Assembly: GCF_001299475.1 (NCBI RefSeq)
Contig: NZ_CYUJ01000002.1
Location: 186,001-250,000 of the forward strand
DNA length: 64,000 nucleotides
Source of the DNA: Neofamilia massiliensis
GTDB lineage: Bacteria > Bacillota > Clostridia > Tissierellales > Peptoniphilaceae
Reading direction: 5' to 3'
The first letter of the stretch is position 1. The number at the start of each line of letters is the position of its first letter. The translations under genes and the position numbers were made by a program. The notes below the pieces were generated by a model, which saw nothing but the letters and a program-made list of their open reading frames with translations, was not told the origin of the DNA and made no database searches. Shown here one piece after another: positions 61,580 through 64,000 of this stretch.

Positions 61580-63124
61580 ATGCACGCAAGTAAAATAATT
61601 AATGAATACATTGACCTAATTAAGTCAGACCCAGAAAAATACTACAAGGACTTTTTAGTGACCAAGGAAATGGTAAAGAACTCTACAGCCTATTACAAGG
61701 GCCTGCCAGTTCCCTTTACCTACCAACCATTTTTTATAGATTCTCATGACGAGGAAAATTTTCAATATATTTTAGACATGATTCTTGGAATTTCAAAAAA
61801 GGTGACCAAGGAATATATTGCAAATCCAGAATACAGAAAGCTCTTTGGCTTTCCAAAGTTTATTGAAGACATGATCTTAGTTGACAATGGCTATGGAGTT
61901 GAAATTCCCATGGGCAGGTTTGATATTTTCTACGACAGCAGGGACAACTTTAAGTTTTGTGAAATAAATACTGACGGCTCTTCTGCCATGAACGAAGACA
62001 TGGTTATAGGAAAAATTTTAAGCCAGTCTAAGGGGCTAAAGGATTTCTCAAAGACTTATAATCTTTCAACCTATGAACTTTTTGATTCTTGGGTTGCTGA
62101 ATGTCTAGAACTTTATTCTAAATACGATCCTGATAACAAAAATCCAAATGTTGCCATTATGGACGTTATGGAGTCAGCTTCATCAAATGAGTTTAAAGAA
62201 TTTAAAAGGGCCTTTGAAAGGGCTGGTTTAAACTGCGAAATTGTCGATGTTAGAAATTTAGAATACAGAGATGGCGCCCTTTACCATGAAGACTATAAAA
62301 TCGACTTGATCTACAGAAGGCTGGTAACCTTTGAACTTATTAATTACAAGGATGAGTGCCAGGCCTTTATTGACGCCTACATGGACCAAAAGGTTTGTAC
62401 CATTGGCTCAATTCAGTCTCAAGTTGTTCACAACAAGATCTTCTTTAAGATTTTATTTGACGAAGAGACCAAGGCTTTGTTAACTGACGAAGAAAATGAT
62501 TTTGTCAAAAACCACATTCCTTATACGGGAATTTTAGGCGGTGATCGTAATGTTTTAGAAAAACTTAAAAAAGATAAGGATGCCTATATTATTAAGCCAA
62601 TGGATAGAAATGCCTCAACTGGTGTCTATGTTGGCCTAGACCTTAGCCAGGAAGAATGGGAAAAAAATATTGAAAGAGACTTTGATCAGGACTTTATCTA
62701 CCAAGACTTTGTAGACGATATGGACATTCCATTTATATTTTTTGACGAAGACGGAAAGCCTTATGTAAAAGAACTAATGAACACAACTGGAATTTTTGCT
62801 TATAACGAAAAGTTTGCTGGCCTTTATACTAGACTTGGTGACGAAAATATTATCTCTGGCCTAACTGACTACATTACTGGGCCAACAGTTTTAGCAGTTA
62901 AAAGGGACATGGACGACATCCTTCCAAGGATTAACGAACTAGCTAAAATCGCTAAGGAAAGACAGCTTACTGCTGAAGAAACCTTAGAGAGAGAAGACCT
63001 TAGAAAAGAATATATTTTTAGATTTAGGTCAGGTTTTAAATCTTCAATGAAAAACGTAAAAGTTGTGGACGAGGAAGGCACAGATGTGACCCCACAAAAA
63101 CTAAAGGACTTAAAAGATAAATGA
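61580..63124 (+). CDS. ATP-grasp ligase fused to a C-terminal DUF896 domain
   Basis: 514 residues. Residues about 1-440 form an ATP-grasp enzyme: FKFCEINTDGSSAMNED, IDLIYRRLVTFELI, VVHNKIFFKIL and YIIKPMDRNASTGVYVGLD are blocks like those in glutathionylspermidine-synthase and permuted ATP-grasp ligases. Residues about 446-512 read PRINELAKIAKERQLTAEE to DEEGTDVTPQKL, which is a whole DUF896 (YnzC-type) domain, normally a separate 60-80 residue protein. The pairing with gshA suggests it adds a residue to gamma-glutamylcysteine. The role of the fused domain is unknown. Binding site ggaggaa. Confidence 0.85.
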   Translation: MHASKIINEYIDLIKSDPEKYYKDFLVTKEMVKNSTAYYKGLPVPFTYQPFFIDSHDEENFQYILDMILGISKKVTKEYIANPEYRKLFGFPKFIEDMILVDNGYGVEIPMGRFDIFYDSRDNFKFCEINTDGSSAMNEDMVIGKILSQSKGLKDFSKTYNLSTYELFDSWVAECLELYSKYDPDNKNPNVAIMDVMESASSNEFKEFKRAFERAGLNCEIVDVRNLEYRDGALYHEDYKIDLIYRRLVTFELINYKDECQAFIDAYMDQKVCTIGSIQSQVVHNKIFFKILFDEETKALLTDEENDFVKNHIPYTGILGGDRNVLEKLKKDKDAYIIKPMDRNASTGVYVGLDLSQEEWEKNIERDFDQDFIYQDFVDDMDIPFIFFDEDGKPYVKELMNTTGIFAYNEKFAGLYTRLGDENIISGLTDYITGPTVLAVKRDMDDILPRINELAKIAKERQLTAEETLEREDLRKEYIFRFRSGFKSSMKNVKVVDEEGTDVTPQKLKDLKDK

Positions 63125-64000
63125 TAAGTGATAAAATTTTGGCCCTAGCAGTTGGAAAAAATCCCAACTACAATGACACAATAATTAGAACTAGGCTAGG
63201 GTCTGTTGCTGGCCTTATTGGCATATTTTTAAATTTAGCCTTAACTGCCTTTAAGGCCACAATTGGTTTAGTAACTGGGTCTCTTTCAGTTTTTGCAGAC
63301 GCCATGAACAATCTTACAGACACCCTTTCTTCAATTGTTTCCCTTGTAGGCATAAGAATGTCAGCCAAGGCCAAGGACGAAGACCACCCCTACGGCCACG
63401 GACGTATTGAATATGTGGCGACACTAATAGTTTCTCTTGGCGTTATTTTTGTTGGAGCTAGTTTATTTAAAAGTTCAATTGAGGGAATAATTAATCCCAA
63501 AGCTTTAAAGACAAATTTTATTGGACTTGTAGTTTTAATTCTTTCAATTGCAGTTAAGTATTGGATGTTTATCTTCTACAAAAAAGTTGGCAAGAAAATC
63601 AATTCAACAACCTTTATTGCAACTTCTGTAGATTCTCTAGGAGATGTTTTAGTTACTAGTTTAGTTTTAGTTTCCTACATTTTATCTAAGTTTTTAAGTT
63701 TTCCAATAGATGCAATTGGCGGAGCAGTAGTTTCAGTTTTTATTTTAAAATCTGGCTACGACCTAGTTAAAGATACAATTTCAGACCTAGTTGGCCGTGG
63801 ACCTAATGAAGAATTTATCTCAGCCATTGACGAAATTTTTTCAAATAGAAAGTACATTCAGTCTACCCACGACCTGCAAGTCTATGACTTTGGCCACGGA
63901 AATTCTTTTGCAACAATTGACGTCGTTGTAGACAGGGACTCTGACATTGTCAGCCTCCACAGGATTTTTACAGAAATTGAACACGAGGTCTTAGACCGTT
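63121..64000 (+). CDS. Cation diffusion facilitator transporter (partial at window edge)
   Basis: 293 codons run off the right edge without a stop. SLSVFADAMNNLTDTLSSIV and DDHPYGHGRIEY-like (DEDHPYGHGRIEYVATL) are the CDF signature with the HxxxD metal set, followed by ATSVDSLGDVLVT, the second metal pair. The cytoplasmic domain (STHDLQVYDFGHGNSFATID) begins near 245. It exports Zn2+, Mn2+ or Fe2+. The start overlaps the upstream stop (ATGA), so it is coupled to the thiol ligase operon. Confidence 0.93.
   Translation, partial: MISDKILALAVGKNPNYNDTIIRTRLGSVAGLIGIFLNLALTAFKATIGLVTGSLSVFADAMNNLTDTLSSIVSLVGIRMSAKAKDEDHPYGHGRIEYVATLIVSLGVIFVGASLFKSSIEGIINPKALKTNFIGLVVLILSIAVKYWMFIFYKKVGKKINSTTFIATSVDSLGDVLVTSLVLVSYILSKFLSFPIDAIGGAVVSVFILKSGYDLVKDTISDLVGRGPNEEFISAIDEIFSNRKYIQSTHDLQVYDFGHGNSFATIDVVVDRDSDIVSLHRIFTEIEHEVLDR

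Follow-up and report, generated by a model that had tools for sequence, protein, structure and literature searches.

The gene cluster and its fused protein

The window, the whole stretch of 64,000 nucleotides of Neofamilia massiliensis analysed here, contains a tight cluster of three genes (Table 1). A GCS2-type glutamate-cysteine ligase gene is followed by an open reading frame at 61580-63124 on the forward strand, which starts with ATG, encodes 514 aa and has no internal stops, and then by a gene for a CDF cation exporter. The first two genes are 14 bp apart, and the start of the exporter overlaps the stop of the fusion by 4 bp. This is the gshA-fusion-CDF cluster described in the original prediction, and matches to PF04107 and PF01545 agree with the identities it gave to the two outer genes.

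Table 1 Features of the cluster, with the evidence for each.
Feature	Position in window	Strand	Evidence
GCS2-type glutamate-cysteine ligase (gshA-like), 426 aa	60285..61565	+	PF04107 E=1.9e-27
ATP-grasp ligase part of fusion, residues 1-440	61580..62899	+	PF03738, AlphaFold2 model, VIA, alignment
Three-residue joint Lys441-Arg442-Asp443 before Met444	62900..62908	+	Alignment of fused, unfused and free proteins; codons
DUF896 domain, residues 444-514	62909..63121, stop codon 63122-63124	+	PF05979, YnzC 2hep match, model
CDF cation exporter, first 293 aa in window	63121..64000	+	PF01545 E=2.6e-47

Both halves of the middle protein score above the cut-offs of the Pfam profiles with which the original prediction proposed to check them. 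DUF896 (PF05979) matches residues 447-509 with 92.6 bits (cut-off 24.2) and E=1.4e-26, covering positions 2-64 of the 64 in the profile, and the C-terminus also matches B. subtilis YnzC (2hep, E=8.4e-14). The GSP_synth family (PF03738) matches residues 73-429 at E=1.2e-10, with 41.6 bits against 29.3. A complete DUF896 domain had been expected at residues 446-512, and the protein indeed joins a whole ligase to a whole DUF896. The NCBIfam DUF896 equivalogs score below their cut-offs (PRK02539, 67.7 bits against 112; PRK01546, 61.8 against 143; PRK01631, 48.1 against 144). No NCBIfam ligase model reached its cut-off with the fusion protein, and Pfam gave no amidase domain match in it.

The upstream ligase passes the broader PF04107 model and scores 223.5 bits with TIGR01436, the plant-type glutamate-cysteine ligase, below the cut-off of 463.15. 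It is the one GCS2 match in a genome-wide search, and the fused domain is the one DUF896 match in this genome, whose assembly has 3 contigs and an estimated completeness of 100%. The exporter extends beyond the window edge; complete, it has 393 aa and Pfam matches to PF01545 (160.5 bits against 26.6 for the full length) and ZT_dimer. Its 293 aa inside the window pass TIGR01297 (205 against 82.35 bits), and the metal-specific NCBIfam equivalogs that match this part are all below cut-off. A 477-aa reading frame begins 98 bp after the exporter and, on reading, is not TrkA. The genome has three glutaredoxin-family matches and no match to glutathione peroxidase (GSHPx); neither result is diagnostic of the product.

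Distribution, origin and conservation of the fusion

DUF896 is present in 17 of the 130 genomes of the window's family, and in four of the 17 it lies in a frame of more than 500 aa. These four are the window genome, G097 from the same genus, and G060 and G075 from other genera, making three genera. Their fusions match the window protein over its length at 100% (the window itself), 84, 61 and 56% identity. The second genome searched from the same genus, G098 (64% complete), was matched by neither the fusion nor the DUF896 query. The matches listed when 249 genomes of the order were searched include no full-length ones beyond these four, and those listed from the order and class searches held no further ATP-grasp::DUF896 fusions. 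In the named collection, the fusion occurs only in three MAGs (L139, L140 and L141) already counted as L094-L096, which are G097, G060 and G075. No fusion was seen among the plasmid matches listed (20 of 21 records); H1 spans residues 5-442, and H16-H20 match only the DUF896 end. Two scans of viral contigs, one with the fused alignment and one with free DUF896, returned pattern matches, among which tblastn confirmed no relative.

A tree of 56 enzyme-half sequences places the four fusions together in one group with support of 95/87. Two unfused genus g5 enzymes join this group with weaker support (91/76), and the branches of G060 and G075 are flagged as long. Codon 4 of the fused enzyme gene of G060 is an in-frame TAG (L095:6764-6775; the same in L141), which may be a sequencing error, a later start or a true lesion; the junction of this gene is intact.

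Seven unfused enzymes aligned with the fusions stop at about residue 440. Four free DUF896 proteins were aligned as well, and by reading, two start at the match to Met444, a third roughly one residue after it and the fourth roughly three before it. At the joint, the stretch MDDILPRIN is invariant in all four fusions. The comparison was extended to 89 DUF896 sequences outside the four fusions, three of them methyltransferase fusions and with L201, a repeat of the genome of L130, dropped. All ten columns conserved in at least 97% of these sequences are identical in all four fusions, as are 18 of the 24 columns at the looser level of at least 70%. The possibility that DUF896 is a metal protein was considered and rejected, there being no Cys or His among these 24 columns. 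In the model, the DUF896 half is predicted to form helices at 448-460 and 465-484, with lower confidence past about residue 480.

The window and G097, the one usable pair, give a dN/dS of 0.072 in the enzyme and 0.097 in DUF896, with dS already at 1.3-1.6; synonymous sites are saturated in the other pairs. Judged from these sequences, the fusion is real and old, arose once and is under selection. Its persistence in three genera, with identity as low as 56%, together with the invariant MDDILPRIN, goes beyond what a neutral accident would require.

The enzyme half and its likely product

The AlphaFold2 model of the fusion, made from an input alignment of 30 rows, four with DUF896, has a mean pLDDT of 89.9 and a pTM of 0.89. 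Its best structural matches (VIA) are E. coli YgiC/YjfC with Z 28.9-30.1 (YgiC 7uka, 30.1), and E. coli Gsp synthetase 2ioa matches with Z 28.0, in both cases within residues 1-440. Several ordinary ATP-grasp enzymes align up to model residues 493-500, into the DUF896 part, which describes the range of the alignment only. Links by sequence are weak, with E=7e-5 for Ligase Cp1B (9cjn) and E=0.04 for trypanothione synthetase (2vob), to which the RfD...EfNtD stretch aligns. Residues R113, D115, E128, N130, D132 and K339 do not vary across the 30-row alignment, and R113, D115, E128 and N130 would correspond to residues that bind metal and phosphate in Gsp synthetase. The modelled enzyme half has the eukaryotic-type glutathione synthetase / glutathionylspermidine synthetase fold.

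Sixty of the 130 genomes in the family and 31 of the 391 in the class encode the enzyme, the latter count including two weak matches (G314 and G410, approximately 1e-12 to 1e-13). The Peptoniphilus indolicus locus L144 encodes the same ATP-grasp as G107 (L104), which places Peptoniphilus in the family. Across 67 distinct ATP-grasp loci, a non-random set hand-picked from the hits and excluding three duplicates, L139-L141 (covered by L094-L096), the weak L175 and the window itself, GCS2 lies directly upstream in 46 and in the same ORF in four; its place is cut off by a contig edge in three, and it is absent from that place in 14. Judged by the fold, the conserved residues and the link to GCS2, the product is most likely glutathione or a close gamma-Glu-Cys-X peptide, in line with the gamma-Glu-Cys product originally proposed. 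Other products are possible, since the genome has no GSHPx match and GCS2 is not directly upstream in the 14 loci. A GCS2 ligase paired with a synthetase of predicted eukaryotic fold would form a probable glutathione route worth attention, and our limited literature search, in the sources it covered in part, identified no paper on such a clostridial route of GCS2 and a GSP_synth-type enzyme.

In four loci the two enzymes form single ORFs of 841-873 aa, GCS2::ATP-grasp (L150:2164-4689, L155:4726-7347, L160:395-2977 and L163:4747-7326). Pfam detects GCS2 in all four and PF03738 in one; the other ATP-grasp halves were recognised by BLAST to the window protein. G314, G358 and G410 have frames of 844-886 aa that may be of the same type. 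Peptidase_C26, the gamma-glutamyl hydrolase family, follows UDG and a hydrolase near GCS2-ATP-grasp in three of the 67 loci (L096:11664-12365, L107 and L246). A CDF gene lies beside GCS2-ATP-grasp in six of the 67 loci, all without the fusion (L102, L108, L245, L248, L253 and L254). The proposed theme of metal-thiol balance gains some support from these six, and they also make the link between exporter and thiol genes independent of DUF896.

DUF896 and the meaning of the fusion

The original prediction took DUF896 to be normally a tiny free protein, and in the genomes searched it is mostly a separate small frame. In the 13 genomes of the family where DUF896 is free, it is followed directly by TrkA in nine, by CDF in three and by neither in one (G064), with TrkH, UDG and an alpha/beta hydrolase further downstream in several. 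Twelve of the 13 are without the ATP-grasp. The fused DUF896 therefore sits in the ordinary slot of DUF896 in this family. In G129 and G128 the free gene overlaps CDF by 4 bp, like the fusion in the window. The order in G060 is GCS2, ATP-grasp::DUF896, CDF, TrkA-TrkH-UDG, and in G075 it is GCS2, ATP-grasp::DUF896, CDF, UDG-hydrolase-Peptidase_C26; in the window and G097, TrkA is not next after CDF. An origin from a downstream neighbour weakens the argument from guilt by fusion. In three order genomes (L107, L108 and L246), GCS2-ATP-grasp itself stands before TrkA-TrkH and UDG, so the order of events is unfixed and the genes may once have adjoined. An ancestral unfused enzyme-DUF896 pair was not found among the genomes searched.

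We also compared the occurrence of the two families. In the class (391 genomes) the ATP-grasp is present in 31 genomes, DUF896 in 194 and both in 17 including the window (Fisher p=0.58). Within the family, the 60 enzyme-bearing genomes comprise the four with the fusion, one of the 13 with free DUF896 and 55 of the 113 without DUF896. The enzyme is thus rarer with free DUF896 than without it, at p=0.006 uncorrected for kinship, and seven of the 13 free-DUF896 genomes belong to one genus. Neither result supports a shared pathway of DUF896 and the enzyme. DUF896 has no match in those 113 of the 130 family genomes, and the fusion lineage retains its copy on the enzyme.

Outside the family, 60 further DUF896 loci were taken from class and phylum hits, mainly the best-scoring ones (L201 repeats L130, and L207 has no DUF896 by profile). 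A lexA-like gene is near in eight and an M18-like gene in six, and many neighbours are unlabelled. The labels lexA, yneA, yneB, tkt, mutL, miaA and rnfC come from reading the proteins and not from Pfam, and those of Met-gamma-lyase and M18 were Pfam-checked on one member each. DUF896 lies immediately before an M18-type aminopeptidase in ten genomes of five families (L130, L133, L136, L137, L138, L180, L188, L190, L208 and L209); this adjacency may be a stronger clue to what DUF896 does than the fusion is. DUF896 is joined to a methyltransferase in three f71-family genomes (L129:3874-4821, L130:4834-5703 and L131:3790-4683; frames of 318, 308 and 310 aa), and these genes directly follow a Met-gamma-lyase-type gene. 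In G336 (L133:4084-4644) DUF896 continues into a long acidic tail with repeated units like GVYGSAEDL and GIYSEGEEL. G747 has a weak 261-aa DUF896 frame, and a 356-aa frame in G764, considered as a further fusion, was rejected as it yields only an 80-aa DUF896 ORF.

Structures of DUF896 (YnzC) have been solved, e.g. 2hep. In the parts seen of a B. pumilus H2O2 study, ynzC is grouped with LexA/SOS genes (PMC3896406). For the pneumococcal homologue spr1327, a viable knockout was not obtained in one study, according to the portion available (PMC4143570). A metal-depletion paper, seen in excerpt, marks the UPF0291 protein EF_1580 as 'Unique' in what is apparently a table of gliotoxin-raised E. faecalis proteins (PMC10533825). 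The partial texts on DUF896, ynzC and UPF0291, which included PMC3814617, PMC4143570, PMC10845952, PMC10533825, PMC9963975 and PMC3896406, contained no glutathione link, no such fusion and no stated function for DUF896.

These observations bear on several explanations of the fused gene. That it is an assembly or sequencing artefact, a stop codon lost in this one assembly, is a vanishingly small chance: one of the four fusion genomes does carry an in-frame TAG, the unrelated one at codon 4, but the joint is identical in four assemblies, the other three 56-84% identical to the window, and the window assembly itself is in few contigs and estimated as complete. The same fusion in three other genomes, its single origin and the retained DUF896 residues dispose of the concern, raised with the original prediction, that it might be confined to one assembly. 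The gene could instead have two products, with internal initiation at Met444 also giving free DUF896 and the fusion only partial. All four fusions retain an ATG at that position, and a purine-rich stretch precedes it in the window and two others. We consider this improbable, however, as a GGAGG-type ribosome site at normal spacing is found in none of the four fusions while several free DUF896 genes have one, MDDILPRIN is conserved as protein beyond the Met alone, and only two of the four aligned free proteins start exactly at Met444.

Somewhat less improbable, though still unlikely, is the functional hint for DUF896 that the original prediction drew from the fusion. Here DUF896 would regulate, localise or stabilise thiol synthesis, and the fusion would reflect a real partnership of DUF896 with glutathione. 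Purifying selection holds the fusion in four genomes of three genera, the CDF neighbours and Peptidase_C26 would suit metal-thiol handling, and the partly seen reports on EF_1580 under gliotoxin and ynzC under H2O2 are compatible with it. Against it stand the class-wide co-occurrence (17/31 vs 194/391), the uncorrected family result (1/13 vs 55/113), the ordinary TrkA/CDF slot of DUF896 and, outside the family, its place beside other genes, e.g. lexA-type and M18 peptidase. In the survey of neighbours that had been suggested, then, the fusion recurs, in four of the 130 family genomes, but the neighbours point to DUF896's usual slot. A bolder form, which we hold a shade more doubtful again, makes DUF896 a regulatory or docking hairpin, fixed on the enzyme since thiol synthesis and metal export need it, with MDDILPRIN as a functional linker and free DUF896 as an adaptor on stress or metal enzymes (CDF, the M18 zinc peptidase, the methyltransferase).

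The reading we favour, and regard as probable, is a selected fusion of neighbouring genes, joining a glutathione-synthetase-like enzyme to a retained and independently working DUF896. The GCS2 enzyme would make gamma-Glu-Cys, and the ATP-grasp part would activate the C-terminal carboxylate of this dipeptide with ATP and join an amine to it, glycine being the likeliest, to yield glutathione or a close analogue. The CDF exporter probably clears surplus divalent metal before it can engage the thiols. DUF896 in this family is generally a gene of its own immediately before (CDF-)TrkA; synteny, junction and tree support a single loss of the stop between it and the enzyme gene, leaving the two joined. 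The fused DUF896 most likely continues its usual job as a tethered helical hairpin, made with the enzyme and taking no part in catalysis, since the family-wide residues are kept and it is the only DUF896 detected in the genome. Points that count against this reading are the invariant joint and the long retention of the fusion, the unfixed order of events, a gene other than TrkA after CDF in the window, the high dS of the one usable pair and the long branches of G060 and G075. The fusion would then be a natural enzyme-tagged form of that domain, with the caution that the function of DUF896 is not readable from the fusion alone.

Several known proteins resemble parts of this system. Human glutathione synthetase (2hgs) shares the predicted fold over model residues 4-439 (Z 28.2, 412 residues aligned), and soybean homoglutathione synthetase (3kal) over residues 7-439 (Z 28.3), both with an rmsd of 4.0-4.1. 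The position of the gene after a glutamate-cysteine ligase gene is a further likeness to the eukaryotic-type synthetases, whereas the identity is only 12-13% and the window enzyme has DUF896 at its C-terminus. With the PF03738 family (2ioa, YgiC/YjfC) it shares a Pfam match over cut-off and the top VIA match, YgiC 7uka, but it differs in having no amidase match, in its link to GCS2 and in the added DUF896. The GCS2::ATP-grasp single frames contain the same two enzyme halves as the window but have GCS2 joined and DUF896 absent; they are GshF-like in arrangement only. The f71 fusions likewise join DUF896 to an enzyme, but there DUF896 is N-terminal and its partner is a class I SAM methyltransferase. 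Finally, the domain is like DUF896 / UPF0291 / YnzC (2hep) in its near-complete Pfam profile and all ten conserved positions; in the searched genomes DUF896 is largely a small protein of its own, whereas in the window it forms the C-terminus of an enzyme.
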